From: Cellulomonas chengniuliangii
GTDB lineage: Bacteria > Actinomycetota > Actinomycetes > Actinomycetales > Cellulomonadaceae
Assembly (NCBI RefSeq): GCF_024508335.1
Contig: NZ_CP101988.1
Coordinates: forward strand, 1,736,001 to 1,800,000
Length of the DNA stretch: 64,000 bases
Reading direction: 5' to 3'
In this document: positions 26,047-44,745 of the stretch, one piece after another
How the letters are laid out: each line of letters opens with the position of its first letter
Numbering within the stretch: the stretch's first letter is position 1
The notes under the pieces: model-generated
Database searches by the model: none
Told to the model about the DNA's origin: nothing
Seen by the model: the letters and a program-made list of their open reading frames with translations, nothing else
Made by a program: the position numbers and the translations under genes

Positions 26047-26808
26047 TCAGTGGGCGTGCACCACGTCCAGCGTCGCCCGCAGCGCCTCGATCGCGACCTG
26101 GCCAGGGGCCGACGGGCGGCCCACGGCGCCGAACGTCGCCGACGACCCGAAGACGCCCCCAGCGAGCCGCGACACGACGCCCTGGCCGGCCATCGACATC
26201 GTGATCAGCGGCTGGTCGGTGCGCTGGGACACGGCCCAGGTGGCGCCCAGCAGCTCGAGCACATCGCCGGGGGTGCGGGGCATCACGGCGATCTTGAGGA
26301 TGTCCGCGCCCCGTTCGGCCATAGTCATCAGCCGCGACTCGAGCTCGGTCTGGGGCGGGGTGCCGTCGAAGTCGTGGTTCGAGGCGACGACGGGCACGCT
26401 GGCCGCGTGGGCGAGGTCGATGAGGGTGCGGACGGCCTCGGCGTCGCGGAAGATCTCCACGTCGATCAGGTCGGCCACGCCGGCGTCGAGCACACCTCGG
26501 TACAGGTCGACGTACTGCTCCGAGGTCACGGTGGCCGCCCCTCCCTCGTCCGACGTGCGGACGGTGACTAGGAGAGGCAGGTCGCCGAGGGCCTCGCGCA
26601 AGCGCAGCCCCGCGTCGAGGACGGCGGCGGGGCCGTCGGTGGTGGCGGCGGTGAGCAGGTCGACCCGCCACTCGACGACGTCGGGCCCGGCGGCCACCAC
26701 CGTGGCGGCGTCGGCGACGAGCTCGTCGGCGTTCGGAGACGTGAGGGGGACGATGACCTTGGGCAGGCCCTCGCCAAAGGTCACTCCGCGTGCGGTGACG
26801 GTGGTCAT
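26047..26808 (-). CDS. aroD: 3-dehydroquinate dehydratase, type I
   Basis: A Schiff-base-forming class I enzyme that interconverts 3-dehydroquinate and 3-dehydroshikimate. The 253-residue product has the family length and all key residues: E46-W-R48, His145 in NHDF, Lys172 in LKIAVMP, and the SMAGQG...R substrate loop near the C-terminus. Actinobacteria normally use the unrelated type II enzyme (AroQ) for aromatic amino acid synthesis, so a type I enzyme beside a YdiB-type dehydrogenase points to a dedicated quinate/shikimate role. It is probably co-transcribed with the upstream dehydrogenase, 16 bp away. Confidence 0.93.
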   Translation of the reverse strand: MTTVTARGVTFGEGLPKVIVPLTSPNADELVADAATVVAAGPDVVEWRVDLLTAATTDGPAAVLDAGLRLREALGDLPLLVTVRTSDEGGAATVTSEQYVDLYRGVLDAGVADLIDVEIFRDAEAVRTLIDLAHAASVPVVASNHDFDGTPPQTELESRLMTMAERGADILKIAVMPRTPGDVLELLGATWAVSQRTDQPLITMSMAGQGVVSRLAGGVFGSSATFGAVGRPSAPGQVAIEALRATLDVVHAH

Positions 26809-26824
26809 GCGGGGCTCCTGGGGA

Positions 26825-27703
26825 TCAGTCGAACAGGTGGGCGCGGACGTAGTCGACCGGCATCGGTTGACCGGTCCACAGCTCGAAGGCGGCGGCGCCC
26901 TGGTGGAGCATCATGCCGAAGCCATTCATCGTGGCGCATCCCGCGGCCTCGGCCTGCTCGAGGAAGAGGGTGCGGGCCGGGCTGTAGACCACGTCGGAGA
27001 CGAACAGGTCGGGGCGCAGCACGTCGAGGGCGGGGAGCGGGGAGACGCCCACGAGCTTGCCCATGCCGACGTTGGTGGCGTTGGCGAGCACGACGGAGCC
27101 GGCCACGGACTCGCGGAAGGCGTCGACGTCGTCGAGCTCGCGCAGGGTCGCCCGGGCGTTGGTGTGCGTGCGGATCTTCTCGACGGTCGACTCGCCGATG
27201 GACCACACGGCGTCGCGCCGGTTGTAGATGTCGATCTCGGCGACGCCGTCCAGGGCGGCCTGGATGGCGATCGCGGTGCCCGCCCCGCCAGCGCCGATGA
27301 GGGTGATGCGCTTGCCGGCGGGGTCGACGCCGGACTCGCGCAGCGCGGTCATGTACCCGGTGCCGTCGGTGACGTGGCCGGTCAGGACGCCGTTGTCGTT
27401 GACGACGGTGTTGCAGGCGCCGACGAGCTCAGCGGCGGGGGAGAGGTGGTCGAGCAACGGGATGATCGCGATCTTGTTCGGCATCGAGACGTTCCAACCG
27501 CGGACCCGCAGGGCGCGCAGGCCGGCGACGGATTCGGCCAGCGCGTCGGAGTCGACCTCGAACGCGAGGTAGGCGTAGTCGAGGTCCAGCTTGGCCAGGG
27601 CGAGGTTGTGCATCCGGGGGGACATGCTGTGCCGGATGGGGTAAGCGATCAGACCCAGCAGCTCGGTGTGGCCAGTGATCGCTCGGGGCTGTCCGTCAGT
27701 CAT
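26825..27703 (-). CDS. ydiB: Quinate/shikimate dehydrogenase, YdiB type
   Basis: An NAD(P)-linked oxidoreductase for shikimate/3-dehydroshikimate and probably quinate/3-dehydroquinate. The 292-residue protein has the substrate-binding ELLGLIAYPIRHSMSP at about residues 14-29, NVSMPNK with the catalytic Lys, TDGTGYM with the catalytic Asp, and the dinucleotide loop GAGGAGTA. NRRD follows strand 2, as in E. coli YdiB and unlike the NRT of AroE. The ATG at 27703 follows GAGGAAG. It is transcribed divergently from tetR1 and upstream of aroD. Confidence 0.9.
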   Translation of the reverse strand: MTDGQPRAITGHTELLGLIAYPIRHSMSPRMHNLALAKLDLDYAYLAFEVDSDALAESVAGLRALRVRGWNVSMPNKIAIIPLLDHLSPAAELVGACNTVVNDNGVLTGHVTDGTGYMTALRESGVDPAGKRITLIGAGGAGTAIAIQAALDGVAEIDIYNRRDAVWSIGESTVEKIRTHTNARATLRELDDVDAFRESVAGSVVLANATNVGMGKLVGVSPLPALDVLRPDLFVSDVVYSPARTLFLEQAEAAGCATMNGFGMMLHQGAAAFELWTGQPMPVDYVRAHLFD

Positions 27704-27751
27704 CGGTGCTTCCTCGACTTGTCGTAGAGCCACGGTCGGGCCGAGGCTCGA

Positions 27752-27773
27752 TGAACGTACTTGATAGTTCATT
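27752..27773. promoter_or_regulatory. Candidate operator between ydiB and tetR1
   Basis: ATGAAC at 27752-27757 and GTTCAT at 27768-27773 form a 6-bp inverted repeat with a 10-bp spacer. It lies in the AT-richer divergent gap, 48 bp upstream of ydiB. It resembles the GAAC/GTTC elements elsewhere in the cluster but matches the 11-bp consensus poorly. Confidence 0.45.
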
Positions 27774-27863
27774 ATCGGACCGCAAAGCGGGTCCATGCGG
27801 GTCGATAGTCCTGCGAGGATGATCGCGTGGCGCGGGCGTCTCCGTGCCGGAGGGAGCGCTGCA

Positions 27864-28547
27864 GTGCCTGGACCGAGTGTCAGCCCAGTGGAGAACCGCG
27901 GCGGGGCGGCGAAGACCCGTGACGCGGAGCGCACGCGGCGGGAGATCCTGGACGCCGCGATTGAGGAGTTCTCCGAGCGCGGGCTGCTCGGCGCGCGCGT
28001 CGACGCGATCGCCGAGCGGATCGACACCACGAAGCGGATGATCTACTACTACTTCGGCAGCAAGGACGGCCTCTACCGGTCCGCCCTCGTGGAGTCCTAC
28101 CGGCGCACCCGCGAGCGGGAGCAGCAGCTCGGCCTGGAGGCGGTGGATCCGGAGGAGGCGTTGCGGACCCTCGTCCGCTCGACGTTGTGCCATGACGCGC
28201 GCAACGAGCCCTTCGTGCGGCTGGTGATGTTCGAGAACCTCAACAACGGTGGCGCGATCCATACCATGGACGAGGAGGTGCGCGCGATGAACCAGGTCGC
28301 GCACACCATCCTCGATGACATCCTGGCCCGAGGGCGCGCATCCGGGGCCTTCCGCGACGGCCCGGACGCCCCGAGCGCGCTCGACGTGCACCAGGTCATC
28401 AGCGCGCTGGCGTTCTTCCGGACCGCCAACCGGTCGACCTTCCGCGAGCTGTTCGGCCGCGACATGCTGGGCGACGAGTCGCGCGACCATGTCCGCCAGC
28501 TCGTGGAGGACACCGTGATGCGCCTGGTGCTCGCCGATCCCCGCTGA
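27864..28547 (+). CDS. TetR-family regulator of the quinate/shikimate cluster (paralogue 1)
   Basis: A TetR/AcrR-type repressor of 227 residues. The N-terminal HTH is REILDAAIEEFSERGLLGARVDAIAERIDTTKRMIYYYFGSKDGLY. The ligand domain contains RLVMFENLNNGGAIHTMDEEVRAMN and ends VHQVISALAFFRTANRSTFRELFGRDMLGDE. I chose the GTG at 27864 because GGAGGG lies nine bases upstream and the product is exactly as long as its paralogue at 43218-43901. Earlier in-frame starts exist at 27795 and 27819. Divergent transcription from ydiB-aroD suggests it controls those genes. Confidence 0.88.
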   Translation: MPGPSVSPVENRGGAAKTRDAERTRREILDAAIEEFSERGLLGARVDAIAERIDTTKRMIYYYFGSKDGLYRSALVESYRRTREREQQLGLEAVDPEEALRTLVRSTLCHDARNEPFVRLVMFENLNNGGAIHTMDEEVRAMNQVAHTILDDILARGRASGAFRDGPDAPSALDVHQVISALAFFRTANRSTFRELFGRDMLGDESRDHVRQLVEDTVMRLVLADPR

Positions 28548-28574
28548 GGCGGCTCCCGCCTCCCCGTTTCTCAA

Positions 28575-28605
28575 CCGTGCCCCGGACTTGAAGTCCGGGG
28601 CACGG
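28575..28605 (+). terminator. Terminator hairpin after tetR1
   Basis: CCGTGCCCCGGAC pairs with GTCCGGGGCACGG around a TTGAA loop, a perfect 13-bp stem shortly after the tetR1 stop. Confidence 0.75.
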
Positions 28606-28659
28606 TCACATCCCCTCCGGGACCTACTGCCCACATCGGGCCGGGCTAGATGGAGCACC

Positions 28660-28682
28660 GTACTAACTAGAACGTTAAGTAC
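28660..28682. promoter_or_regulatory. Candidate TetR operator upstream of the dienoyl-CoA reductase-like gene
   Basis: GTACTAAC at 28660-28667 and GTTAAGTAC at 28674-28682 form an imperfect inverted repeat with a six-base spacer. Read on the minus strand, 28670-28660 is CTAGTTAGTAC, matching nine of eleven positions of the CTGGTTCGTAC element seen upstream of the acyl-CoA dehydrogenase operon. It sits 27 bp before the GTG start at 28710, where a repressor would block transcription. Confidence 0.55.
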
Positions 28683-28709
28683 CGGCTCTGCCGCTGGAAA
28701 GGACCACCC

Positions 28710-30809
28710 GTGAGCCTCGTGACCCCGATGCCGCCCTCTGCCCGGACACCCATCGGTCGGACCACCCGTCCCATCGCCCCCCTCGCCGTCCAGGTGGAGC
28801 GCCGCGACCCGGCGCCCGCGACCCCGGCACTCCTGTCGCCGCTGCGGGTGCGCGGCATGACGCTGCGCAACCGCGTCGTGATGCCGCCGATGGGCACGAA
28901 CTTCGCGCTGCCCGACGGCACGGTGTCGGACACCCAGCTCGACTATTACGAGCAGCGCGCCCGCGGCGGCACAGGGCTGATCATCGTCGAGAACATCTGC
29001 GTGACGTTCCCGGCCGGGTCCAACGGCACCACCCAGCTGCGCATCGACCACGACCGGTACGTCCCGCGGCTGTGGGAGCTCACCGAGCGCATGCACCGCC
29101 ACGGCAGCAAGGCCGCGATCCAGCTCAACCACTCCGGCGCCTCGGCGAACCCCCGGCGGACCGGGACGCCCGCGGTGTCGTCGTCCGACCAGCCCTCCAA
29201 GCCCGGCGGGACGATCCCCGTCCCCCTGGACGTCCAGGAGATCGCCTCGATCGTCCAGGACTTCGCCGACGCGGCCGCCCGCGCCCGCCGCGCCGGGTTC
29301 GACGCCGTCGAGCTGCACGCCGGGCACTCGTACCTGCTCAGCCAGTTCCTCTCGCCGCTGTACAACCACCGCACCGACGAGTACGGCGGCAGCCTCGCCG
29401 GGCGGGCCCGGCTCATCCGCGAGGTGCTCGCCGCGGTGCGCGGCGCCGTCGGCGAGACGATCCCGGTGATGCTGCGCATCAGCGCCGACGAGCTCGTCGC
29501 GGGCGGCAACACCATCGAGGACTCCCTGGCGATCATGGAGCTGCTCGTGGACGAGGTCGACATCATCGACGTCTCCGCGGGCCTGGCGATGAACCTGCAG
29601 TACCAGATCGACCGGATGGACCTGCCCGACGGGTGGCGTTCGGGCATGGCCCGCCGCTTCCGCGAGAAGTTCAACCTCCCGACCATCACCTGCGGGAACG
29701 TGCGCGACCCCCTCGTGGCCGAGCGCATCGTCGCCGAGGGGGACAGCGACCTGGTGGCCATGGGCCGCGGGCTCATCGCCGAGCCGTGGTGGGTGCGCAA
29801 GGTGGCCGAGGGGCGCGCCGACACCATCCTCGAGTGCGTCTCCTGCAACATCGGCTGCGCCGACCACCGCATCCGCCTCGACCGGCCGATCCGCTGCTCG
29901 ATCAACCCCGACATCGTCCAGCACGAGGCCTTCATGCGCCGCCGGGTCACCAGCCCGACCCGGGTGGTCGTGGTCGGCGGTGGAGTCGGCGGGCTCGAGG
30001 CGGCCTGCACCGCCGCCGAGGTCGGCTGCGATGTCGTCCTGTTCGAGTCGCGCGACGTCGTCGGCGGCACGGTCGGCGAGGCTGTGCGACTGCCCGCCAA
30101 GCGCCGCATCGCGATCTTCCTCGACTACCTGGTCCGGCGTGCCGCCCGCGCGGGCGTCGACGTGCGGACCGGGACGCACGCCACCCCTGCGCTCGTCGCG
30201 TCGCTGCTGCCGGACGTGGTGGTCAACGCCACCGGGGCGGCGCCGCTGCTGCCCCCGATCCCCGGCCTGCGCGAGCGGGTGGATGTGCCGGGCTCCGGCG
30301 TCCGCTCGATCACCGACGTGATGGCGCACGCGTCCGAGCTCGAGGAGCTGCGGGGCCAGCACGTCGTGGTCGTGGGGGCCGGCGCGGTCGGGCTCGACGT
30401 CGTCGAGGTGTGCACCCAGCTGGACGCGCGTGTCACGCTCGTCGAGCGCCTGCCCGCGATCGCCGCAGACCTCGACCTCATCACCGCGATGCAGTCCCAC
30501 GAGATGATCGAGCGCCATGGCGTCGAGGTGCGCACCGGGACCTCGCTCGTCGAGGTCGGGGACGGCTGGGTGGACGTGCGGACCGGCGACGGCCCCGTCG
30601 AGCGGATCGAGTCGGCGACGACGTTCGTCTGCTTGGGGATGCGCCCGAACGTCGAGTCCTACGCGGCGCTGAGCGAGCACTTCGCCGGCACCGACGTGCG
30701 GGTGCTCGACATCGGCGACTCCGCCGGCGTGGGGAAGATCATCGACGCGACCGCCGCTGGCCGCGACGTGCTGCTCGCCCTGGAGACGCGCGGCGTCCTG
30801 GCGCCCTGA
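28710..30809 (+). CDS. NADH:flavin oxidoreductase / 2,4-dienoyl-CoA reductase-like enzyme (FMN, FAD, 4Fe-4S)
   Basis: A 699-residue flavo-iron-sulfur enzyme of the old-yellow-enzyme superfamily, like FadH and the bile-acid enzymes BaiCD/BaiH. The N-terminal FMN TIM barrel (about residues 40-370) contains [30 protein letters not shown] and [15 protein letters not shown] cysteine cluster CVSCNIGC plus a later CSINP Cys at about 375-395 would bind 4Fe-4S. FAD- and NAD-binding domains follow ([14 protein letters not shown] and [15 protein letters not shown]). It probably reduces C=C bonds conjugated to a carbonyl or CoA thioester, but its substrate is unproven. GGAAAGGA precedes the GTG start. 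Confidence 0.9.
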
Positions 30810-30835
30810 CGACGAGGGACGACCGACACCCGGGC

Positions 30836-30877
30836 ACGGCCCCGGCTGGCCGCGAGCACGCGGCCAGCCGGGGCCGT
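30836..30877. terminator. Strong hairpin terminator, first of a tandem pair
   Basis: Perfect 19-bp inverted repeat (30836-30854 with 30859-30877) around an AGCA loop, directly after the dienoyl-CoA reductase-like gene. Confidence 0.85.
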
Positions 30878-30922
30878 AGTCGTCCCCCCAACGTCCCCCC
30901 GACGCGCGGCCCCCGAGGGCAG

Positions 30923-30970: not shown

Positions 30971-30981
30971 GCCGCTAGTGG

Positions 30982-31959
30982 TCAGCCGCGACGGGCCCGG
31001 ACCGCCGCCGTGAGGGCCGGCACGATCTCGAACAGGTCGCCCACCACACCGACGTCGGCCACCTCGAAGATCGGGGCGCCCGCGTCAGAGTTGATCGCGA
31101 CGATGACCTTCGAGGAGGACATGCCCGCGAGGTGCTGGCTCGCGCCAGAGATGCCGCAGGCCAGGTAGACGTCCGGGCTCACCTTCTTGCCGGAGATGCC
31201 CACCTCGAGGTGCACCGGGACCCAGCCCGCGTCCGCCGCGGGCCGCGAGGCGCCCACGGCGGCAACCGGGCCGAGCGCGTCGGCGAGATCGCGCAGCACG
31301 CTGAAGCCGTCGGCGCCGCCCATGGCCCGGCCACCAGAGACCACGACCCGAGCGTCCTCCAGTGCCGTCTCCCCGTCGGTCTCGGTCACGACGCGCTCGA
31401 GCACGCTCGTGCGAGGCGGCTCCGGCGCCGCCACGTCCTCGACCACGACGGTCGGCGTCGCGCCACCGGAGTCGGCGGCGCTCAGGGCGCCGGCGGCCAC
31501 AGTCACGACCTGCACGCCGGCCGGGATGGCGCAGCGCACCACCTGGGCGCCGCCCAGTACGTCCTTGGTCAGGACGAGCCGGCCGTCCGCGCCGAGCTCG
31601 ACGCGGGTCGCCCCGGTCACGAGCCCGGTCGCCAGCCGCGCGGCGAGCCGTGGGGCGAGGTCGTTGCCGCGCGTGGTCGCGGCGAACAGCACCGCGTCCG
31701 GGGTGTGCCGGCCCACGAGCTCCGCGAGCGCGGTGACGTGCGTCTGGGGGTCGTATTCGGCGTAGGCCGCGCCGGACACCAGGCGGACTGTCGTGGCGCC
31801 GGCGGCCCCCGCCGAGGCTGCCAGCCCTTCGACGCCGTCTCCGATCAGCACGGCGGTCACATCGCCGCCCAGGCGGGCGGCCTCGCTGACCAGGGCGAGA
31901 GAAGCGTCGGACGCAGTCTGCTGCGACTGCTCGACGAGGATCCACAGGGCGGGGCTCAT
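30982..31959 (-). CDS. etfA: Electron transfer flavoprotein alpha subunit (FixB/YdiR-like)
   Basis: EtfA carries FAD and, with EtfB, passes electrons between acyl-CoA dehydrogenases and an ETF:quinone oxidoreductase. The 325-residue protein has the N-terminal EtfB-like fold and the C-terminal FAD domain with [64 protein letters not shown] and [22 protein letters not shown]. The ATG at 31959 follows AAGGAGA. It is the last gene of a minus-strand run beginning at 39882. Confidence 0.94.
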
Positions 31960-31969
31960 GTCTGTCTCC

Positions 31970-32743
31970 TTACAGGACGCCGGCGCTGACCAGCGCGGCG
32001 ACCAGCTCGTCGGCGATCTCTTCGGGCGTGCCGCTGATGCGCACACCGGGCTCGCGCGGCGGGCGCGCGGTGATGTCGAGCACCGTGGTGGTCGCACCGG
32101 CGCCCGCGGCGTCGATGCCGAGGTCCGCGGCGGTCAGGACGTCGAAGGACGCCTTGTTCGCGGCGAGCTTGCTCTTGACCGAGGGGTACCGAGGGGTGTT
32201 GACGTACTCGTCGACGGTCACGACACCCGGCAGCGTGATCCGGATGCGCGCGTGGCCGTCCTCCAGCACCTGGCGGCAGACGAGGGCGTCGCCGTCCGCC
32301 TCGATCTCGGTGACGTTGGTGACCTGCGGCAGGCCCAGCAACTCGGCGACCATGGCGGGGACGGACGAGGTCCCACCGTCGAAGGACCGGGCGCCGGCGA
32401 GCACCAGGTCGAACTCCCCGAGCCGCCTCGCGGCGGCCGCGAGCACCTGGGCGGTGCCCCACGCGTCCGCGCCCACGAGGGCGTCGTCGTTGATGTGCAC
32501 GCCGCGGGTGGCTCCGACGCTCACGCACTCCTTGAGCGCCGCCTTGGCGGACGCGGGGCCCATGGTCAGCACCGTGACGGCGCCTCCCTGTGCCTCGACG
32601 AGCTGGACCGCTGCCTCGAGGGCGTTGCGGTCCACGGGGTCGGTCACGGCGCCGCCGGTGGACCTGTCGATCGTGTGCTCGGCCGTCAGGCGCACGTCGG
32701 CGAGCTCGCCGGGCACCTGCTTGACCAGGACGAGGATGTCCAT
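31970..32743 (-). CDS. etfB: Electron transfer flavoprotein beta subunit (FixA/YdiQ-like)
   Basis: The AMP-binding partner of EtfA, 257 residues. It starts [19 protein letters not shown] and contains the [14 protein letters not shown] segment, a [29 protein letters not shown] motif and [32 protein letters not shown], all typical of ETF beta. The ATG at 32743 was preferred to one 33 bases upstream because it gives the family N-terminus and follows AGGAC. It is adjacent to etfA in the acyl-CoA dehydrogenase operon. Confidence 0.93.
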
Positions 32744-34509: not shown

Positions 34510-34514
34510 GGCGC

Positions 34515-34820
34515 TCAGCCCTGCCGGTAGCTGACGCCGGCGCCTGTCGCGGGGTAGTTCCACGAGTAGCCCTCCGCGCCGAGGCGCAGCCGCTCGCAGA
34601 CCAAGCGGCAGTTGCCGCACTCCAGGCAGCCGACGTGGTCGAACCGCATCTGGTCGGCCGCCTCGTCCCACACGTAGCGCTGGGCCGGGCAGGACGTCAC
34701 GCACGCCCGGTCGGAGGGGCACGTGCGGCAGGCCTGCGGGTCGATCACGATGTGCGCGTTGTGCTCATCGGTCTCGAAGCGTGTGGTGGCGAGCAGCTCG
34801 TCGACTGACTTGCGGGTCAT
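34515..34820 (-). CDS. fixX: Ferredoxin-like protein FixX/YdiT type
   Basis: A 101-residue ferredoxin-like electron carrier that works with FixC. Cysteines lie at 31, 34, 40 and 44 (CRTC...CVTSCP) and again at 65, 68, 71 and 75 (GCLECGNCRLVC). The second group is the usual 4Fe-4S set of FixX. The extra cysteines at 31 and 34 may or may not bind metal. The ATG overlaps the fixC stop (ATGA), so the two are translationally coupled, which supports the FixCX pairing. Confidence 0.9.
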   Translation of the reverse strand: MTRKSVDELLATTRFETDEHNAHIVIDPQACRTCPSDRACVTSCPAQRYVWDEAADQMRFDHVGCLECGNCRLVCERLRLGAEGYSWNYPATGAGVSYRQG

Positions 34821-36106: not shown

Positions 36107-36161
36107 CGATCACCACCTCTCGTCGCACCGCGGCCGCTGCCGGGTGCCCAGCAGAACGGAC

Positions 36162-37304
<1,143 letters not shown>

Positions 37305-37371: not shown

Positions 37372-38592
37372 TCAGTCCCGGGCGGCCGCGTGCACGGCGC
37401 CCTCGGCCAGCAGCGCCGCGATGTCGGCCGCGTCGTAGCCGAGTTCGGCCAGAACCTCGGGGGTGTCGGCGCCCTGGGGGCGGGACAGCCGCAATGCCGG
37501 GTCGCCCTGGCCGCGGAAGCGCACCGGGTTCGTCGGCAGCATCCGCTCCGCGCCGTTGGGGTAGGTGAGGGTGCGCAGCACGTCGTTGGCGATGGCCTGC
37601 GGGTCGGAGTAGACGTCCTGCGGCAGCTGGCACTTCGCCATCGGCACGTCGTGCTCGCCGAACAGGGCAAGCCAGTGCTCGGCGGGCCTCGTCGCGAAGG
37701 CCTCGTCGAGGATGTCGACCACCTCGCCGTTGCGGCCGGTCTCGTTGACGGCGGTGCACACGCCCAGCACGGGGTCGCCGACGAGGTCGTCGCGTCCGAT
37801 GAGCCGCATGACCTTGTCGAAGTCCCGGTCGTACTCGGGGGCGCACAGGGCCATCAAGCCGGAGTCGGAGCCGAGGTACGTGTTGTTGAAGGGGTTGATG
37901 ACCTCGCGGCGGTTCTTCGGGTAGGTCGCGCCGTACTGGGCGGCGACCATCGCCTGGTTGAGCATGAAGACGCCCGAGTGGAACAGGTTGGCGGTGACGT
38001 AGTCGCCGTGGCCGGTCTGCTCGCGCTGGTGCAGGGCGGCCAGAACGCCGGCGAGCAGGACGAACGAGACCTGGAAGTCCCCGTAGCCGCTCGGGGGGAG
38101 CATGGGACGGCTGCTGGAGTCGCGGGTCGTGGCGAGCACGCCCGCGCGGGACATGTAGGTGGTCATGTCGAAGCCGGCGGCGTCCTTGAGGGGCCCGTTC
38201 TCGCCGAAGCCGAGCACCTGGGCCATCACGAGCCGCGGGAAGCGCTCGCGCAGCGTGTCGTAGTCGTAGCCCAGCTTGGCGAGGGAGCGCACCCGCGTGC
38301 TGGTCACGAAGACGTCGGCGTCGGCGAGCAGGCGGTCCATCACCTCGCGGCCGCGGGGCTGGCGCAGGTCGACGGTGACGAACCGCTTGTTCATGTTCGC
38401 CATGTCGAAGCCGGGGTTCTCGTCATCGGTGCAGGGCGTGCCGAAGACCGTGCCCTGGGTCCGGCCCGGGTCGCCGCGCGGTGGCTCGACCTTGATGACG
38501 TCCGCGCCCCACTCGCCCATGATCCGGGGGGTGGTGGGCGCGGCCAGGAACGCGGTCATGTCGACGACCTTGACTCCGGCCAACGGCTGCAT
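37372..38592 (-). CDS. Class III CoA-transferase (CaiB/BaiF family)
   Basis: A 406-residue enzyme that moves CoA between carboxylic acids. It begins MQPLAGVKVVDMTAFLAAPTTPRIMGEWGADVIKVEPPRGDPGR, typical of the family. GFDMTTYMSRAG near residue 140 holds the probable catalytic Asp. ANLFHSGVFMLNQ and the NPFNNTYLGSDSGLMAL segment follow. It may shuttle CoA from product to substrate, saving ATP used by the ligase downstream. E. coli uses a different class of transferase, YdiF, at this place. Confidence 0.89.
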   Translation of the reverse strand: MQPLAGVKVVDMTAFLAAPTTPRIMGEWGADVIKVEPPRGDPGRTQGTVFGTPCTDDENPGFDMANMNKRFVTVDLRQPRGREVMDRLLADADVFVTSTRVRSLAKLGYDYDTLRERFPRLVMAQVLGFGENGPLKDAAGFDMTTYMSRAGVLATTRDSSSRPMLPPSGYGDFQVSFVLLAGVLAALHQREQTGHGDYVTANLFHSGVFMLNQAMVAAQYGATYPKNRREVINPFNNTYLGSDSGLMALCAPEYDRDFDKVMRLIGRDDLVGDPVLGVCTAVNETGRNGEVVDILDEAFATRPAEHWLALFGEHDVPMAKCQLPQDVYSDPQAIANDVLRTLTYPNGAERMLPTNPVRFRGQGDPALRLSRPQGADTPEVLAELGYDAADIAALLAEGAVHAAARD

Positions 38593-38678: not shown

Positions 38679-38700
38679 GCGGGTGATCAGGTGCGGACGA

Positions 38701-39882
38701 TCAGAAGGTGTATCCGTCGTTCGCGATGAGCCCACGCGCGGCCGTGATGCGCTGCACGGTGGGGGGGCCCTCCTCGAGCCACATCGCGCGGCAGTCGCGG
38801 TACAGGCGCTCGACCGGGCCGTAGGCGCAGTTCTCGAAGTAGCCGATGCCGCCGAGGATCTCGAGCATGTTGTCCGAGACGAGCTTGACGGTGCGGATCG
38901 AGAAGAGCTTGCACATGGCCGCGTAGGTGTCGGCCTCCTCGCCGCGGTCGTAGCGGTCCGCGGTGTCGTGGACCATCTGGCGCAGCGCGTAGATGTGCGT
39001 GCCCGACTCGGCGATCATGTGCTGGATCTCCTGGCGGGTGGCCAGCTTCTTGCCGAAGGTCACGCGGTCCTTGGCACGAGCAATCGAGATCTCCAGCATG
39101 CGCTGGGCCATGCCGAGGTTGGAGTCGGCGATGTGCGCCCGGGACAGGCCCAGGGAGAACATCGCGACGTGGTAGCCCTCGCCGACCTCGCCGAGGCGGT
39201 ACTTGTCGGGCACCCGGCAGTCCGTGAACCGCAGGCCTGCGTGGCCGGCGCCACGGCAGCCCATCATGTGCTCCATCTCGACGATCTCGTAGCCCGGAGC
39301 GTCGGTGGGGACGAAGAACGCCGTGAGGCGGCTGTCCTTGTCGGCCGTGGGGTCGGTCAGCGTGATGAGGTAGGTGCCGTCGGAGCAGTCCGTGTGCGAG
39401 ATGAGGGTCTTCTCGCCGTTGATGACCCACTCGTCGCCGTCGCGGACCGCCGTCGTCTTGATGTCGGCGCCGGAGCCGGCCTCCTCCTCGGTCAGCGCGA
39501 AGTTGACGAAGAGGGTCTTGTCCTGGAAGCGGGGCATGGCCCAGCTCTTGAGCTCGTCCTGGCCGAAGTCGTCCATGATGCGCCAGTTGAGACCGGCAGC
39601 GTGGTGCAGGTGCATGCGCATGCCGCCGGGGCCGCGCGAGAACTCCTCCTGGACCTGGAAGATCTGCTTGGTCGACAGACCCCAGCCGCCGTGCTCGACG
39701 GGCATGTAGAACCGGTACAGGTTGTGCTTCTTGGCGAGCTCGAAGAACTCGTCGGGGAAGACGTTGGTGTGCTCGATCTCCTTCTGCATCTCGTCGAACG
39801 GGCCTTCGGCCAGCTCGCGGATCTCCTGCAGATAGGCCTGGAACTCTTCGTCGTCGACCGGCTTGTGATCCAACATCGGCAT
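38701..39882 (-). CDS. Acyl-CoA dehydrogenase (second of two, first gene of the operon)
   Basis: A 393-residue FAD enzyme clearly diverged from its neighbour at 36162-37304. Motifs are FALTEEEAGSGADIKTTA, INGEKTLISHTD, RVTFGKKLATRQEIQHMIAE and ILGGIGYFENCAYGPVERLYRDCRAMWLEEG. The last contains Glu residues near the usual catalytic position. Its substrate is unknown, but two different dehydrogenases in one operon suggest two successive redox steps on a CoA-bound ring. It starts at MPMLDHKP with GAGGATG-like sequence upstream, about 107 bp downstream of the operator at 39978-39999. Confidence 0.9.
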   Translation of the reverse strand: MPMLDHKPVDDEEFQAYLQEIRELAEGPFDEMQKEIEHTNVFPDEFFELAKKHNLYRFYMPVEHGGWGLSTKQIFQVQEEFSRGPGGMRMHLHHAAGLNWRIMDDFGQDELKSWAMPRFQDKTLFVNFALTEEEAGSGADIKTTAVRDGDEWVINGEKTLISHTDCSDGTYLITLTDPTADKDSRLTAFFVPTDAPGYEIVEMEHMMGCRGAGHAGLRFTDCRVPDKYRLGEVGEGYHVAMFSLGLSRAHIADSNLGMAQRMLEISIARAKDRVTFGKKLATRQEIQHMIAESGTHIYALRQMVHDTADRYDRGEEADTYAAMCKLFSIRTVKLVSDNMLEILGGIGYFENCAYGPVERLYRDCRAMWLEEGPPTVQRITAARGLIANDGYTF

Positions 39883-39977
39883 CCTCCTTGGGCGGGGCGC
39901 TGCGTCCCGCCGACGGCGGGATCTCTCGTGGCGGTCGTCTCGTCAGCGGTGACGGCGGGACGGCCTCGATATCGCCT

Positions 39978-39999
39978 GTAGGAACTCACTGGTTCGTAC
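39978..39999. promoter_or_regulatory. Candidate TetR operator for the acyl-CoA dehydrogenase-etf operon
   Basis: GTAGGAAC and GTTCGTAC form an inverted repeat with a six-base spacer. The 11-mer CTGGTTCGTAC at 39989-39999 is the reference copy of the element shared across the cluster. It is the only such element found between the operon start at 39882 and the terminator at 40122. Confidence 0.6.
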
Positions 40000-40121
40000 A
40001 AAGCATGTCCAGTCTGCAGCCACGCTCGACCTCACGACGGGACCAAGGTCCTCGCACGCCGGGAAGATGCCTCCCTAGACCGTCGGCGCGACCCCGTGGG
40101 CCGGGCAACAGGCAACCGGCA

Positions 40122-40162
40122 ACGTCGATCCCGGGCAGCGGACCGCTGCCCGGGATCGACGT
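40122..40162 (-). terminator. Terminator hairpin after the first MFS carrier gene
   Basis: Perfect 20-bp inverted repeat (40122-40141 with 40143-40162), 17 bp beyond the stop of the MFS gene on the minus strand. Confidence 0.8.
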
Positions 40163-40178
40163 GAGGGTCGTCGCCGCG

Positions 40179-41453
40179 TCAGGACGCGAGCGGCGCCACC
40201 TGCGGCTCCGTGACAGCGCGCGCGGACCCCAGGATGTGTTGGTGGCGGTAGCGGACGAAGAGGCCCAACAGAGCGGCCGCCACCGCCACGCCCACGCCCA
40301 TGCCGAGCACCTGGCGGTAGCTCGAGACAGCGTTGCTCGCGTCGCCCACGAGCAAGCCGGACACGTAGGGGAGGGCGAAGGCGGCCGCGCCTGAGGCCAG
40401 TCCCACCATGGAGGTCACCACGCCCTTGCGGAGCGGGAAGAACTCCGCCAGCACCACCACGGTGAGCTGGAAGAGGCCGCCCGCGGCCGAGAACCCGATC
40501 ACGAAGGCACAGGCATGGAAAGCCCCAGGGTTCGTCGACAACAGCAGGCCCACGTAGGCCAGCCCTGCCACGACCGGGTTGACCGACAGGATCGTCACCG
40601 GCCGGACGAAGCGCGCGACCAGGGTCGCGGTGACGAACACCCCGATGAACGAGCCGATCGAGTACGACGACACGAGCGAGCGCCCGGCGCTCTCCGACAT
40701 GCCGGCGAGGTGGACGCCCAGCATCGGCAGCGTGTTCTGGGCCAGCCAGAACATCGCGGTCGCGCAGAAGCCGTACAACACGAGCGCCGCGCCGTCAATG
40801 CCGACGCAGGAGCGGGCGGCCGGCGCCGCTGCGCGCTCGGCGGCCTGGGCAGCGGCGTCGAGCTCCGCGCGCTGGGCCGCGGCCAGCGCGCGGTAGTCCG
40901 GAAACGGGGCGCGCAATTGGATGGCGAACAGGACCGCCAGGATGACGATGAGCGCGATCATCGGGGCGCCCCAGGCGATGCCAGCCGCGGCGACACCCGT
41001 CACCACGAGCGGCAGCGCCAGCTGGCCCAGGGAGATCGCAGCCTTCACCAGCACGTTCGCGCTGCCTGCGACCTTGGGGAAGATCTCCATCAAGGTCGGG
41101 TAGTTCCCGGTGTCGCCGACCGCGTTCGCCAGGCCGAAGAACAGCGCCAGCGCGAAGCCGACCTGCCAGTTCGGGCTCACCAAGAGCCCACCGAGGAAGA
41201 TCATCACCATCACGAGGCCCGTCAGCACCGACAGGCGCCGGCCGAACCGGTCGGAGAGGAACCCAGCGAAGGACGGCCCGATGATCTTGCCGATGCCGAC
41301 GCCGGAGATCGCCTGCAGGACCTGGCCCTCGGTGGCTCCCCACTGGAGCTGAAGGTGCGAGCTGTGCTGCGACATGATGATGACGACCATGCCGTAGACG
41401 ATGAAGTAGAGGTAGATCACCATGGCCGTGGCCATGCAGGGGGTGCGCCTCAC
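40179..41453 (-). CDS. MFS transporter, YdiM/YdiN-like (paralogue 1)
   Basis: A 424-residue major facilitator with about 12 membrane helices and a cytoplasmic loop near residues 185-215. The MFS signature GFLSDRFGRRLSVLTG is at about 64-79. The NYPTLMEIFPKVAGSANVLVKAAISLGQLALPLV stretch and GFSAAGGLFQLTVVVLAEFFPLRKG closely follow E. coli YdiM/YdiN, carriers encoded next to ydiB-aroD. Uptake of quinate, shikimate or a relative, or export of the reduced product, is inferred. It has its own terminator and a separate upstream region with a candidate operator half-site. Confidence 0.88.
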   Translation of the reverse strand: MRRTPCMATAMVIYLYFIVYGMVVIIMSQHSSHLQLQWGATEGQVLQAISGVGIGKIIGPSFAGFLSDRFGRRLSVLTGLVMVMIFLGGLLVSPNWQVGFALALFFGLANAVGDTGNYPTLMEIFPKVAGSANVLVKAAISLGQLALPLVVTGVAAAGIAWGAPMIALIVILAVLFAIQLRAPFPDYRALAAAQRAELDAAAQAAERAAAPAARSCVGIDGAALVLYGFCATAMFWLAQNTLPMLGVHLAGMSESAGRSLVSSYSIGSFIGVFVTATLVARFVRPVTILSVNPVVAGLAYVGLLLSTNPGAFHACAFVIGFSAAGGLFQLTVVVLAEFFPLRKGVVTSMVGLASGAAAFALPYVSGLLVGDASNAVSSYRQVLGMGVGVAVAAALLGLFVRYRHQHILGSARAVTEPQVAPLAS

Positions 41454-41543
41454 GATTGCCTCTCGAACTTGGAACGTGACCCGGCAGCGGCAAAGGCTCT
41501 CCTGGACAGTTGCCCAAGTTATGGGGTCGCTGGGGCCCTTGAC

Positions 41544-41601
41544 GTAGGACCAGCGGCGGCCGACGGCTCCCTTTTGCGCCGTCGACCCCGCTGGTCCGTA
41601 C
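41544..41601. promoter_or_regulatory. Hairpin containing a candidate operator half-site between the two MFS genes
   Basis: An imperfect inverted repeat pairs 41544-41566 with 41579-41601 over a 12-base loop and probably terminates the upstream MFS gene. Its right arm includes CTGGTCCGTAC at 41591-41601, ten of eleven positions identical to the element at 39989. It may double as an operator for the downstream MFS gene, whose start is at 41453. Confidence 0.5.
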
Positions 41602-41615
41602 TCATAGCGATGCGG

Positions 41616-42872
41616 TCAGTTGGCGGCGGTCAACTCGGGCGAGGTGATCTCCGCGACGTCGTGGCCGAAGACGATCCGGTGGCGGATGTTGACCAGCACG
41701 CCGAGCAGCGCCGAGATCACGGCCACACCGATGCCGAGCCAGACCACCCCGCGGTACGGCCCGACCAGGGCCGCGCCCTCGGCGTCGCCGAGGATGACAC
41801 CGGTCAGGAACGGGAGGAGGAACGCCGCGACACCCGAGGCCAGGCCGATGAGCGAGGTCACCAGGCCCTTGCGGGCCGGGAAGAACTCGGCCAGGACGAC
41901 GACCGTGAGCTGGAAGAGGCCACCGGCGGCGAAGAAGCCGACGAGGAAGGACGAGACGCGGTACACGGACGGGCTGTCGGAGGTGAGCAGCAGGACGTAG
42001 GCGATCGTGGTGATGATCGGATTGACGACCAGCAGACGCACGGGCTTGACCCAGCGGGCCACCAGGCCCGCGTTGGTGAACACGCCGATCAGCGAACCGG
42101 TCGCGTAGAGCGACACCAGCGTCTTGGCGCCAGCCTCGCCCATCCCGGCGATGTGCTCGCCCATGCCCGGCAGCGAGTTCTGCGCGAGCCAGAAGGTGCC
42201 GACCGAGGTGAAGCCGAAGAACACCAGGGCAGCGCCCTCGACCCAGATCTTCGCGCCGGCCTTCTCGCCGATGACCGCGGTGACGGCCAGCGCCTTGGCC
42301 TTCGCCTCGGCCGCGAGCGCCTTGTGGTCCGGGAACTTGAGGAAGCAGACGAGGATGAAGCACAGGCCGATCGCTGTGGCCGCGCCGTAGAAGGAGGTCT
42401 TCCAGAACAGGCCGCCGGCGACGAGGATCGGGAGCAGGAGCTGGCCGATGGCGATCGCGGCCTTGACGAGCAGGTTGGCCGAACCGGCCTTCTTCGGGAA
42501 CGCCTCCATCAGGGCCGGGTAGGCGCCGACGTCGAGGATGGCGTTGGCCAGGCCGAACCACACCGACAGCACGAAGCCGACCTTGTAGTTGGGGCTGTTC
42601 ACCATGCCGGCGAAGTAGACGACGCTCATGAGCAGCGAGGTCAGCAGCATGGCCTTGCGACCGAACTTGTCAGACACGAAGCCCGCGAACGCCGGGCCGA
42701 TGATCTTGCCGATGCCGACGCCGGAGATGGCGAACGCGATCTGTCCGTCCGTCGCCCCCCACATCTCCATCAACGAGCTCTTGTTCTGAGACACGATGAT
42801 GAGGGCCATCCCATACAGGATGAAGTAGAAGTAGATCGATCCCGCAGTAGGGATGTACGGGTTTCTCCGCAT
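41616..42872 (-). CDS. MFS transporter, YdiM/YdiN-like (paralogue 2)
   Basis: A 418-residue paralogue of the carrier at 40179-41453, with the same 12-helix layout. It begins MRRNPYIPTAGSIYFYFILYGMALI and contains GFVSDKFGRKAMLL, AYPALMEAFPKKAGSANLLVKAAIAIGQLLLP and GFFAAGGLFQLTVVVLAEFFPARKG. The ATG at 42872 follows AGGAAGG and gives the same N-terminus as paralogue 1. Two carriers could divide import and export, or quinate and shikimate. It is transcribed from a region containing a GTTCGAAC palindrome. Confidence 0.88.
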   Translation of the reverse strand: MRRNPYIPTAGSIYFYFILYGMALIIVSQNKSSLMEMWGATDGQIAFAISGVGIGKIIGPAFAGFVSDKFGRKAMLLTSLLMSVVYFAGMVNSPNYKVGFVLSVWFGLANAILDVGAYPALMEAFPKKAGSANLLVKAAIAIGQLLLPILVAGGLFWKTSFYGAATAIGLCFILVCFLKFPDHKALAAEAKAKALAVTAVIGEKAGAKIWVEGAALVFFGFTSVGTFWLAQNSLPGMGEHIAGMGEAGAKTLVSLYATGSLIGVFTNAGLVARWVKPVRLLVVNPIITTIAYVLLLTSDSPSVYRVSSFLVGFFAAGGLFQLTVVVLAEFFPARKGLVTSLIGLASGVAAFLLPFLTGVILGDAEGAALVGPYRGVVWLGIGVAVISALLGVLVNIRHRIVFGHDVAEITSPELTAAN

Positions 42873-43062
42873 GACGACCTTCCTGGTGTGCCGTGCCGTG
42901 GGGGGGACGAGGTACTGCCAGAGCACATCGGGCGGAACCCGGAGGCGCCGTCCGCTGTCCTAGTGCCCCGCTCGGGCTGCCGCGTTCCCGCAGTTCCACC
43001 AAAGGACGACGACGTCGTGCGGTGTCTGTGCGGAGCCGTGCAGTAGGGCGATCAGGGACTCC

Positions 43063-43073
43063 CTAGTTCGAAC
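43063..43073. promoter_or_regulatory. Candidate TetR operator upstream of the second MFS carrier
   Basis: CTAGTTCGAAC matches nine of eleven positions of the shared cluster element and includes the perfect palindrome GTTCGAAC at 43066-43073. It is about 190 bp upstream of the MFS start at 42872, within the 345-bp gap 42873-43217 that otherwise holds only the tetR2 terminator and a short hairpin at 43141-43162. Confidence 0.5.
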
Positions 43074-43174
43074 ATTGTTGCCCCGGCGAATCACCCGCCA
43101 CGGGGCCCTTGGTCCCTACTGGGATAGGCGAAGCGTCAGAGACCGCTCGCCGCATAGCGGTCGGCAGTCGGGCC

Positions 43175-43208
43175 CGGGATCGCGCGCCTGGCGCGCCGCC
43201 GATCCCGT
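43175..43208 (-). terminator. Terminator hairpin after tetR2
   Basis: CGGGATCG and CGATCCCG close a GC-rich hairpin with an inner GCGCGC pair, 10 bp beyond the tetR2 stop on the minus strand. Confidence 0.6.
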
Positions 43209-43217
43209 GGGGAGCCG

Positions 43218-43901
43218 TCAGGCGGCCAGATCCGCCAGCACGAAGCGCAGCACGACGTCCTCGATCATCGTCCGCACGTGGGGGGACTCCTGCTCGCCCA
43301 GCATGTCCCGGTCGAACAGCTCCCGGAACGTCGCGCGGTTCGCCACCCGCTGGAACGCCAGGGCGGATATCACCTGCTGCACGTCCAGCGCGGTCGGGGC
43401 GCCTGGCCCGCCGCGGAACACCCCGGACTCGCGACCACGCCGCAGTATGTCGTCGATGATCGTCAGCGCCGTGCGGTTGGCGGCCTTGCTCTCCTCCGTC
43501 ATCAGGTGGATGGCGCCTTGGGGGAGGGTGTTCTCGAAGACGACCAGGCGGACGAACGCCGGGTTCTGCTCGTGGTGCAGCACGTTAGACCGCACGAGCA
43601 GCCGCAGGGCCTCCTGCGGCTCGAAGGAGTCGAGGTGGAGATTGACCTCGGTCTCTCGGATCTGCCGGTAGGCGTGGAGCAACGCTGCCGCGTACAACTC
43701 CTCCTTGCCGCTGAAGTAGTAGTAGATCATCCGCTTGGTGACGTTGGTCCGCTCGGCGATCGCGTCGACGCGCCCCGCCAGCAGCCCGTTGGCGGAGAAC
43801 TCGTCGATGGCCGCCTCGAGGATCTGCCGTCGGGTGCCCTCGGGGTCGCGACGTGCTGCCACGGTCTGGCGTCGGGACTGCGCGACGTCGGCTGTGGTCA
43901 T
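43218..43901 (-). CDS. TetR-family regulator of the quinate/shikimate cluster (paralogue 2)
   Basis: A 227-residue TetR-type regulator strongly similar along its whole length to the one at 27864-28547. Shared stretches include RVDAIAER...TKRMIYYYF in the HTH, EALRxLVRS, FVRLVxFEN, GAIHxM, LDVxQVISALAFxR and RDMLG. Near-identical recognition helices (VTKRMIYYYF against TTKRMIYYYF) imply similar operators. The ATG at 43901 gives the paralogue-matched N-terminus. It is divergent from aroK, and the gap contains a copy of the candidate operator. Confidence 0.9.
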   Translation of the reverse strand: MTTADVAQSRRQTVAARRDPEGTRRQILEAAIDEFSANGLLAGRVDAIAERTNVTKRMIYYYFSGKEELYAAALLHAYRQIRETEVNLHLDSFEPQEALRLLVRSNVLHHEQNPAFVRLVVFENTLPQGAIHLMTEESKAANRTALTIIDDILRRGRESGVFRGGPGAPTALDVQQVISALAFQRVANRATFRELFDRDMLGEQESPHVRTMIEDVVLRFVLADLAA

Positions 43902-44010
43902 GTCACGGGCTCCCCAGGTGGACGGCGCTGCGGCGAGATCGAGCGGCGAATATGGTCCTGCGCACGATAGTCGACCAGATGCGGCGCGTCGGGACTCCTC
44001 GCCCCGTCGG

Positions 44011-44028
44011 GTACGAACTGGTCCATAC
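44011..44028. promoter_or_regulatory. Candidate TetR operator between tetR2 and aroK
   Basis: GTACGAAC and GTCCATAC form an inverted repeat with a two-base spacer. CTGGTCCATAC at 44018-44028 matches nine of eleven positions of the shared element. The site lies 110 bp before tetR2 and 75 bp before aroK, so it could control both. Confidence 0.55.
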
Positions 44029-44103
44029 AATCGACCCGACCGTGCTGTCCACATCACCCAGCGCCCGACGTCGACCGACGGGCTCACCGGAGGCGAACCG
44101 CCG

Positions 44104-44745
44104 ATGTCCACCAGTCCCGCCCCCTCCCGCCGCCTCGCACCGGTGGCCCCGCCGGAGCGAGGGCCGCTCCTCGTGCTGTGCGGTCCGATGGGATCTGGCA
44201 AGACGTCCGTCGGCAGCGTGCTCGGCCGGCGCTGGGACGTCGCGCTGCGCGACACAGACGAGGATGTCGAGGACACGGCGGGCACGACGATCGCCGACAT
44301 CTTCCTGCACCGTGGCGAGGAGGAGTTCCGGCGGCTCGAGCACGAGGCCGTCGAGCGCGCCCTCGTCGAGCACGATGGCATCCTCGCCCTCGGCGGCGGA
44401 GCCGTCCTGCACGAGGACACCCAGGCCGAGCTCGCCGCGTACGCGCGCGGCGGCGGGATCGTCACCTTCCTCGACGTGTCGATCGAGTACGCCGCGCCCC
44501 GGGTGGGCCTGGGCGAGGCGCGGCCGCTGCTCATGGGAGACCCGTACCAGCGCTGGCGCGACATCATGGACGCCCGCCGGCCGGTGTACGAGGCGGTGTC
44601 CACCATGCGCACCCTCACCGACGGAATGACCCCGCAAGAGGTCGCCCGGGAGATCGAGCGTCGCCTGCGCGTCGCCGCCCGTGACAAGGCCCGGGCCCAG
44701 CAGGCGGCACGCGGGCACGCGCACGGCCACGGGCACGGGCACTGA
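44104..44745 (+). CDS. aroK: Shikimate kinase with a His-rich C-terminal tail
   Basis: Shikimate kinase phosphorylates shikimate with ATP, the entry to chorismate. The 213-residue protein contains the P-loop GPMGSGKT at 27-34, D50-T-D52 and Arg76 for shikimate binding, GGG at 97-99, and ARPLL with RRPVYEAV in the lid and adenine regions. It is longer than the usual 165-175 residues owing to an N-terminal extension of about 20 residues and a tail ending HGHAHGHGHGH. In actinobacteria aroK normally sits with aroB/aroC. Here it stands alone beside tetR2. It may be the genome's only copy or a second, pathway-linked one. GGAGG precedes the ATG. Confidence 0.9.
   Translation: MSTSPAPSRRLAPVAPPERGPLLVLCGPMGSGKTSVGSVLGRRWDVALRDTDEDVEDTAGTTIADIFLHRGEEEFRRLEHEAVERALVEHDGILALGGGAVLHEDTQAELAAYARGGGIVTFLDVSIEYAAPRVGLGEARPLLMGDPYQRWRDIMDARRPVYEAVSTMRTLTDGMTPQEVAREIERRLRVAARDKARAQQAARGHAHGHGHGH

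Follow-up and report, generated by a model that had tools for sequence, protein, structure and literature searches.

The nearest described locus to the genes considered here is ydiMN-ydiB-aroD-ydiFO-ydiQRST-fadK of Escherichia coli, most products of which are annotated as putative. The nearest system whose mechanism is understood is the caiTABCDE and fixABCX set of the same species (carnitine reduction), with which these genes have in common CoA activation, a flavin enoyl-CoA reductase, and electron transfer through an electron transfer flavoprotein (ETF) and FixCX. Lactobacilli reportedly reduce quinate and shikimate to dihydroshikimate and 3,4-dihydroxycyclohexanecarboxylate (Biochem J work of the 1950s–1970s), the same substrate and reductive direction that we expect here, and we know of no genes assigned to that activity. 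In this study, we analyze a cluster of 16 genes from Cellulomonas chengniuliangii, located at 26047–44745 of a 64,000-nucleotide stretch (“the window”: contig NZ_CP101988.1, positions 1,736,001 to 1,800,000), in which quinate/shikimate enzymes stand beside acyl-CoA redox enzymes. We think it probable, if well short of certain, that the locus is a TetR-type regulon for the uptake of quinate/shikimate-type hydroaromatic acids and their CoA-dependent reduction as an electron sink, a reading in which we infer the substrate, the order of the steps, the direction, and the products.

Quinate is of wider interest in gut communities. A paper on coffee and Lawsonibacter (Nature Microbiology, 2024; PMC11602726) describes the enzymes that degrade quinic acid in the gut as mostly lacking from current knowledge and cites two proposed routes, one oxidative, to protocatechuic acid, and one reductive, to hexahydrobenzoic acid; according to a bee gut study (PMC5726620), several gut bacteria use quinate. 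Titles and abstract openings of the literature, and term searches of PMC9889317, gave no gene assignment for a CoA route of quinate or shikimate (which does not prove its absence from print), and it seems that genes for CoA-linked quinate/shikimate reduction have not previously been assigned. If our reading is true, the cluster supplies candidate genes for bacterial quinate reduction, including the reductive route in the gut, for which this gene set, apparently co-regulated and found together with AroD and YdiB in two phyla, is a concrete candidate.

Gene calling combined with NCBIfam and Pfam scans of 20 window proteins (spanning an Mtr4-like helicase to GT2) returned the 16 cluster genes with the same families and positions that a first-pass annotation, made from the sequence alone, had given them. 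The source genome is a single contig of 3.57 Mb, and the G+C content of the 64-kb window is 72.8%. In their order along the window, with the short names used below, the genes are as follows (ACAD, acyl-CoA dehydrogenase; DHQ, 3-dehydroquinate):

26047..26808, minus strand: AroD, type I DHQ dehydratase (TIGR01093, 217.6 bits, cut-off 139.3; PF01487)
26825..27703, minus strand: YdiB-like quinate/shikimate dehydrogenase, by sequence (47% identical to E. coli YdiB)
27888..28547, plus strand: TetR1, TetR-family regulator 1 (PF17938/PF00440)
28710..30809, plus strand: OYE, Fe-S flavoenzyme of OYE/FadH/BaiCD type, 699 aa (BaiCD model, 467 bits; Cys motif from residue 376)
30982..31959, minus strand: EtfA/FixB (PF01012, PF00766)
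31970..32743, minus strand: EtfB/FixA (PF01012)
32773..34509, minus strand: FadK-like acyl-CoA ligase (NF004758, 596 bits, and TIGR03208, 371 bits, both below cut-off; 44% to FadK)
34515..34820, minus strand: FixX, ferredoxin-like (PRK15449, 54 bits, below cut-off; CxxCxxCxxxC)
34817..36103, minus strand: FixC, ETF-quinone oxidoreductase-like (PRK10015, 375 bits, below cut-off; 43% to YdiS)
36162..37304, minus strand: ACAD1, predicted acyl-CoA dehydrogenase/enoyl-CoA reductase, acryloyl-CoA reductase-like (NF042972, 364 bits, below cut-off; catalytic Glu, MEGT motif)
37372..38592, minus strand: CaiB-like, CaiB/BaiF-fold protein (PF02515) with the class III catalytic Asp replaced by Thr200 (Pfam, alignments, fold search)
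38701..39876, minus strand: ACAD2, acyl-CoA dehydrogenase homolog with EEGPP motif (Pfam, alignments, fold search)
40179..41435, minus strand: MFS1, MFS carrier 1, YdiN/YdiM-like (33% to YdiN)
41616..42926, minus strand: MFS2, MFS carrier 2, YdiN/YdiM-like (36% to YdiN)
43218..43901, minus strand: TetR2, TetR-family regulator 2 (PF17938/PF00440)
44104..44745, plus strand: AroK, second shikimate kinase (PF01202, 122 bits; full-length alignment with solved shikimate kinases)

The cluster is real and conserved, and not a chance grouping, as its conservation and a shared dyad demonstrate. A neighborhood search found it beyond the source genome: it is nearly complete in a second genus of the Cellulomonadaceae, and its acyl-CoA core occurs across Actinomycetota and Bacillota. 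CaiB-like proteins (E ≤ 1e-60) are present in two of 150 genomes of the family, namely the source genome and a member of another genus. A phylum sample has them in 16 of 396 genomes, counting the source genome; in most genomes, the phylum scan for CaiB-like and the family scan for OYE scored the best four and best seven candidates, respectively. In the second genus, the gene order is nearly the same and includes TetR1, TetR2, OYE, YdiB, AroD, and AroK, with one carrier, turned round, instead of two; ACAD2 is 90% and the CaiB-like protein 80% identical to that of the window. Four window flanking proteins used as queries were unmatched in the 33 kb read at that cluster, and six other genomes of the source genus in the sample have no CaiB-like protein at E ≤ 1e-60. 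Because of these differing surroundings and this absence, the cluster looks horizontally acquired. No tRNA that might mark an insertion site was found beside it, at 20000–50000. Close ACAD2 relatives (85–92%) occur in Cellulomonas denverensis, Cellulomonas sp. RIT-PI-Y, and C. citrea.

In a promoter alignment of the Cellulomonas relatives, ACAD2 is preceded by an 18-bp dyad, GTAC-NN-ACTAGT-NN-GTAC. The exact 18-mer at three or fewer mismatches is found twice in the window (0.00 expected). At 10 or more of 14 positions, the dyad has eight sites in the window, and six of these fall within the intergenic DNA of the cluster, which makes up 1,786 bases or 2.8% of the window (five of seven when the site used for derivation is left aside). 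The six, listed without strand, are:

27753..27770: operator-like dyad between YdiB and TetR1 (10/14 positions)
28660..28677: operator-like dyad before OYE (11/14)
39982..39999: operator-like dyad before the ACAD2 operon (12/14; aligns with the same dyad in four relatives)
41584..41601: operator-like dyad before MFS1 (10/14)
43056..43073: operator-like dyad before MFS2 (11/14)
44011..44028: operator-like dyad between TetR2 and AroK (12/14)

None of 298 shuffled dyads had more than three sites in the same intergenic DNA. The binomial probability of this placing is 1.3e-8, a value that treats positions as independent, allows a 6-base overhang at interval ends, and uses a consensus drawn partly from the site at 39982; a site at 36154 that overlaps the end of the ACAD1 reading frame was counted as coding. 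At 11 or more positions, there are four sites, all of them cluster-intergenic, against a mean of 0.3 (largest 2) in 20 simulated sequences of the same second-order composition. Because six intergenic sites spread over the cluster, the one before AroK among them, have the same dyad, the cluster is probably one regulon, with AroK, YdiB-AroD, OYE, and the acyl-CoA operon under one control, and the regulators that act on the dyad are most likely TetR1 and TetR2. Between them, conservation and dyad bear out the claim of the first-pass annotation that quinate/shikimate enzymes and acyl-CoA redox enzymes are joined in one region, which we find to be a patchily distributed, apparently co-regulated cluster.

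Beyond the family, we compared 76 ACAD2 loci taken from the best 80 of 132 relatives, which were collected with two peptide patterns and are weighted to well-conserved homologs (flanks of at most 10 kb, often less). The core order ACAD2-CaiB-ACAD1-EtfB-EtfA-ligase occurs in Halanaerobium, Lactiplantibacillus, Agrilactobacillus, Bifidobacterium asteroides, Clostridium ljungdahlii, and Acetobacterium. The Cellulomonas loci differ in having FixC, FixX, and the ligase between ACAD1 and EtfBA, and that of Propionibacterium acidifaciens has a FixABCX set with the ligase and a TetR gene ahead of it. FixCX was not seen in the stretches read for most Bacillota core loci. Two Oscillospiraceae loci (L059, L090) have ACAD1, ACAD2, CaiB-like, OYE, YdiB, AroD, and the ligase, with no Etf match in the stretch, and Eggerthellaceae often have ACAD2, CaiB-like, and the ligase but not ACAD1. 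The core is also carried by four Lactobacillaceae loci, in genomes with AroD and YdiB, and on the ACAD2 tree B. asteroides is nested among the lactobacilli (clade 100/99, inner fork 94/86), which suggests transfer. The arrangement had been described as actinobacterial; the joined cluster does occur in actinobacteria, but the label is too narrow because the core is common to Bacillota.

AroD lies within the fetched stretch of five of the 76 loci (two of Oscillospiraceae type, two of Slackia, and one of Eubacterium), and YdiB-type genes in eight. Whole-genome searches for AroD and OYE covered 32 of the 76 loci, hand-chosen to span lineages; type I AroD was found in 21 of these 32 genomes (27 matches, with surroundings read for 20). 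In C. denverensis, P. acidifaciens, Halanaerobium, and Agrilactobacillus, a module of AroD, YdiB, and OYE is on the ACAD2 contig with AroD 11–14 kb away, contigs of equal length being taken as one and the same. In C. ljungdahlii and C. thailandense, AroD, two YdiB genes, OYE (49–54%), and YdiM/N-type carriers are on a contig other than that of ACAD2. Lactiplantibacillus has AroD and YdiB, and no OYE was found in its genomes at E ≤ 1e-100. Of the 32 genomes, 11 have OYE at 47% identity or more, and each of these has type I AroD; among the 21 genomes without such an OYE, 10 do (Fisher P 0.003, with a 47% threshold set after seeing the gap and kinship ignored). At the same threshold, OYE is present in the same two of 150 family genomes as CaiB-like, and a third match (E ≤ 1e-100) is 38% identical. 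Overall, the two modules tend to travel together, although not always.

Some further features of these neighborhoods are recorded here for their own sake. L056 (Lactiplantibacillus dongliensis) and L061 (B. asteroides) have a GlcD-like oxidase, a LysR-like regulator, an MFS carrier, the core, and a hotdog thioesterase in near-same order, and the ACAD2 tree points to transfer between the two. In anaerobes, a small Cys-rich protein sits beside the core (L065:17140–17667 and similar positions; 42 of 77 stretches compared, and not grouped from L047–L052), with a weak, below-cut-off Desulfoferrod_N match in one member and none in another. A tripartite-tricarboxylate-like transporter, recognized by eye and not by a hidden Markov model, is found beside quinate/shikimate genes in L090 and L081 (metagenome-assembled genomes of gut Oscillospiraceae/Eubacterium). 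Several ACAD2-, YdiO-, and CaiB-like paralogs per stretch occur in L028–L046 (family f27, probably Eggerthellaceae) and in Eggerthellaceae loci among L077–L122, which suggests a range of acyl-CoA-linked respiratory reductases. In the window itself, 56338–57744 partly resembles a bifunctional xylanase/feruloyl esterase (163 bits, where the cut-off is 1200), which fits a plant-biomass lifestyle.

Under our preferred reading, the MFS carriers would import the acid, and YdiB and AroD would interconvert quinate, 3-dehydroquinate, 3-dehydroshikimate, and shikimate. The FadK-like ligase would then form the CoA thioester of shikimate or a relative, and ACAD1 would reduce the C=C bond conjugated to the thioester, with electrons passing from the quinone pool through FixCX to EtfAB (in relatives without FixCX, EtfAB alone would feed ACAD1). 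The Asp-less CaiB-fold protein and ACAD2 might carry out further elimination and reduction of ring hydroxyls on CoA esters, and OYE might reduce a conjugated enone or dienoyl intermediate. Products could be dihydroshikimate, dihydroxycyclohexanecarboxylate, or, in the end, cyclohexanecarboxylate (shikimate + 8[H] -> cyclohexanecarboxylate + 3 H2O). Imported shikimate may also be passed to aromatic biosynthesis by AroD and the extra shikimate kinase. The reductive direction is favored because many of the relatives are, to judge by their names, fermentative or acetogenic anaerobes, because OYE is of reductase type, and because of the reported quinate reduction by lactobacilli.

Both ACAD1 and ACAD2 have the Pfam domains of three-domain ACADs and a catalytic Glu near the C terminus (in MEGT and EEGPP, respectively), which is kept in 11 of 11 chosen homologs of each (from 11 loci each, identity at least 45%); E. 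coli CaiA and YdiO have Gly in its place. ACAD1 scores 364 bits against a cut-off of 640 with the AcrC model, its second-best model is cyclohexane-1-carbonyl-CoA dehydrogenase, and CarC is among its solved relatives; EtfAB match the AcrA/AcrB models. A solved relative of both ACADs is 7p98, titled cyclohex-1-ene-1-carboxyl-CoA dehydrogenase. For the ligase, NF004758 is the best model and TIGR03208, cyclohexanecarboxylate-CoA ligase, is second. In ACAD2, a GPGGMRMHLH segment is invariant in nine sequences; it falls where other ACADs form the wall of the acyl pocket, and would suit a hydroxylated substrate. Fold search with the predicted ACAD2 structure (pLDDT 74.6) confirmed the ACAD fold, and neither this model nor that of the CaiB-like protein indicated the substrate. 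OYE has a CxxCxxxC...C motif, BaiCD as its best NCBIfam model (467 bits against a cut-off of 825), and as its closest solved chains 2,4-dienoyl-CoA reductase (1ps9) and NCR (6qkg), the latter presumably 2-naphthoyl-CoA reductase.

The retained Glu base, the cyclohexane-1-carbonyl-CoA dehydrogenase model, and 7p98 are points in favor of the cluster running the other way, with shikimoyl-CoA dehydrogenated or dehydrated to a benzoate or hydroxybenzoate thioester and electrons passed through ETF-FixCX to quinones. We consider aromatization of this kind unlikely, although it is the main rival to reduction. There is no aromatic-acid degradation gene among the cluster genes, OYE is of reductase type, and the scarcity of FixCX at most Bacillota core loci leaves an oxidation there with no evident acceptor. 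The protocatechuate-dioxygenase family (PF00775) is absent from the whole source genome, so that the earlier statement that protocatechuate ring cleavage is missing held up for that family. No 3-dehydroshikimate dehydratase is among the annotated cluster genes (the genome was not searched for that enzyme).

The CaiB-like protein is the most unusual member of the cluster. It had been listed as a CoA-transferase, and its family and fold agree with this: the PF02515 match is 290 bits against a cut-off of 23.3, and Foldseek with the predicted structure (pLDDT 74.0) gave class III transferases as best matches, with an rmsd of ~18 over the whole chain. Class III CoA-transferases are interlocked dimers, and a high whole-chain rmsd is expected for one chain. 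What does not agree is the catalytic residue. Where CaiB and Frc have Asp169, the window protein has Thr200, and Asp is found at that position in none of 52 aligned sequences from Actinomycetota and Bacillota, the window protein included (rows with fewer than 300 aligned residues or below 30% identity were left out). The 46 close rows have 43 Thr, two Ser, and one Val, and the six distant rows have five Val and one Ser; four different class III proteins from the PDB that were aligned with the family all have Asp, and the PDB titles among the fold matches include Asp169 mutants of formyl-CoA transferase and CaiB. Decay is unlikely because the family is otherwise well conserved, with 72 invariant positions among the close rows. 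Given that the catalytic Asp is missing throughout, we rejected a plain class III CoA-transferase; the protein is probably not an ordinary CoA-transferase, and probably does other chemistry on CoA esters. This exposes an Asp-less branch of the class III fold, the chemistry of which should differ from the textbook one. It is possible, but to our minds doubtful, that the protein belongs to a new kind of hydroaromatic acyl-CoA lyases or isomerases and acts beside ACAD2 in removing hydroxyls from the ring, and that the locus represents a bacterial CoA-level reductive dehydroxylation of quinate/shikimate common to Cellulomonas, lactobacilli, bee-gut Bifidobacterium, acetogenic clostridia, and gut Oscillospiraceae. 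If so, it would explain the microbial alicyclic acids (and, via the host, hippurate) that derive from coffee and plant quinate.

It is important to note that AroD by itself proves nothing here. A view of it as a purely catabolic extra gene did not survive the genome-wide search: AroD is the only DHQ dehydratase detected in the source genome, with no type II enzyme (PF01220) detected there, and it is very likely also the biosynthetic enzyme because there is no type II enzyme for that job. Among 150 family genomes, type I is present in 12, type II in 136, both in none, and neither in two (one of which is only 89% complete). Types I and II thus exclude each other, with type I in place of type II in 12 genomes from four genera, and 10 of the 12 type I genomes lack the cluster near AroD; for these reasons, AroD was rejected as a dedicated catabolic marker. 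AroK adjoins AroD in two of the 10 other type I genomes (13–20 kb read around AroD).

The cluster YdiB and AroK, unlike AroD, are extra copies. An AroE-like Shikimate_dh_N gene lies at genome position 1698846, its product 30% identical to the cluster YdiB-like protein, and a further shikimate kinase copy at 1713490. The YdiB-like protein has the SMPNK motif in common with E. coli YdiB and scores just under NF001313 (430.1 bits against a cut-off of 431) and under the YdiB model (301 against 349). Identities and motif, with no tree, mark it as a predicted YdiB-type enzyme set apart from the genome's own AroE.

Several observations weigh against our reading. The total of eight dyad sites is unremarkable, as the simulations reach eight as well (mean 3.9 at 10 or more positions), and what is unusual is solely where the sites lie and that four of them reach 11 or more. 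In the relatives, sites at 11 or more stand mainly before ACAD2 (five genomes including the window), and not before OYE or YdiB. Type I AroD is missing from 11 of the 32 ACAD2 genomes, and many Eggerthellaceae loci have no nearby ACAD1, AroD, or YdiB; ACAD2 may therefore serve other acids in such loci and genomes. AroD linkage is not clustered on the ACAD2 tree (eight changes against a shuffled mean of 9.0, with 128 of 500 shuffles as low, counting C. citrea as linked although its AroD is on another contig of the same genome). YdiB and acyl-CoA genes were not seen in the 13–20 kb around AroD in the 10 other type I family genomes and, with AroD the sole DHQ dehydratase detected, part of its association with acyl-CoA genes could reflect biosynthesis. 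The Glu kept in both ACADs fits either reaction direction, and no model for the ligase or the ACADs reaches its equivalog cut-off. Finally, neither an enoyl-CoA hydratase nor another known dehydratase is in the window cluster, so that the hydroxyl-removal step is a guess.

Some of these points are also what would be seen if two unrelated neighbors had been taken for one system, i.e., a biosynthetic aroD with extra aroE- and aroK-like genes beside acyl-CoA genes that serve some other carboxylic acid (fatty, carnitine-type, or cyclic). AroD as sole DHQ dehydratase detected, the missing type II enzyme in 12 of 12 type I family genomes, and the 11 of 32 genomes that have ACAD2 but no type I AroD would all be accounted for. 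We nevertheless regard this as quite unlikely: the shared dyad spans both halves; AroD, YdiB, and OYE stand near the same acyl-CoA genes in Cellulomonas, Propionibacterium, Halanaerobium, Agrilactobacillus, and Oscillospiraceae; and thiolase, hydratase, CaiD, and CaiT are not among the window cluster genes.

Compared with the carnitine system, the likeness in mechanism noted at the outset is not matched in sequence. FixABCX, a ligase, an ACAD, and a CaiB-fold protein are all there, in favor of a carnitine-reduction-like system (caiABC with fixABCX) or an anaerobic beta-oxidation of fatty acyl-CoA. However, the CaiB-like protein is only 24% identical to CaiB and lacks its catalytic Asp, the ACADs are 25–28% identical to CaiA (ACAD2 25%), no CaiD, CaiE, or CaiT family is among the cluster genes (CaiD was unmatched by any of the 20 window proteins), and the module is coupled to YdiB, AroD, and AroK. 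On the family scans and the low identity to cai proteins, both versions were rejected, and we hold them to be very improbable.

For single components, other systems are also close. The bile-acid Fe-S flavoenzyme BaiCD and NCR are the best model and nearest solved chain for OYE, yet its score is far under the BaiCD cut-off. The acryloyl-CoA and caffeyl-CoA reductase-Etf complexes resemble ACAD1 with EtfAB, to which the window adds FixCX, with ACAD1 below the model cut-off. The nearest chemistry, likened by reaction and not by sequence, is that of Streptomyces (ansatrienin/phoslactomycin), in which shikimate is reduced and dehydrated at the CoA level to cyclohexanecarboxyl-CoA, a biosynthetic starter unit.

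As a whole locus, E. coli ydi remains the closest, and when the window proteins were compared with the products of both E. coli loci, most had their best match in a ydi, aroD, or fadK product. It shares with the window AroD (44% identical), YdiB (47%), YdiM/N-type carriers (33–36% to YdiN), FixABCX (43% to YdiS; FixX 37% to the fix-operon FixX and 34% to YdiT), a FadK-like ligase (44%), and an ACAD (27–31% to YdiO, 31% for ACAD1). The earlier statement that the same functional set occurs in E. coli is right for these genes but not for the remainder: the ydi stretch has no annotated CaiB-fold protein (class III CoA-transferase), no OYE, and no shikimate kinase, and a single ACAD, YdiO, without the Glu, in place of two with it. 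Its YdiF, annotated as a putative acetate-CoA transferase, has no match among the 20 window proteins compared, and we take its regulator, YdiP, not to be of TetR type. The comparison in turn suggests a role for the E. coli ydi locus, the annotation of which is still putative.

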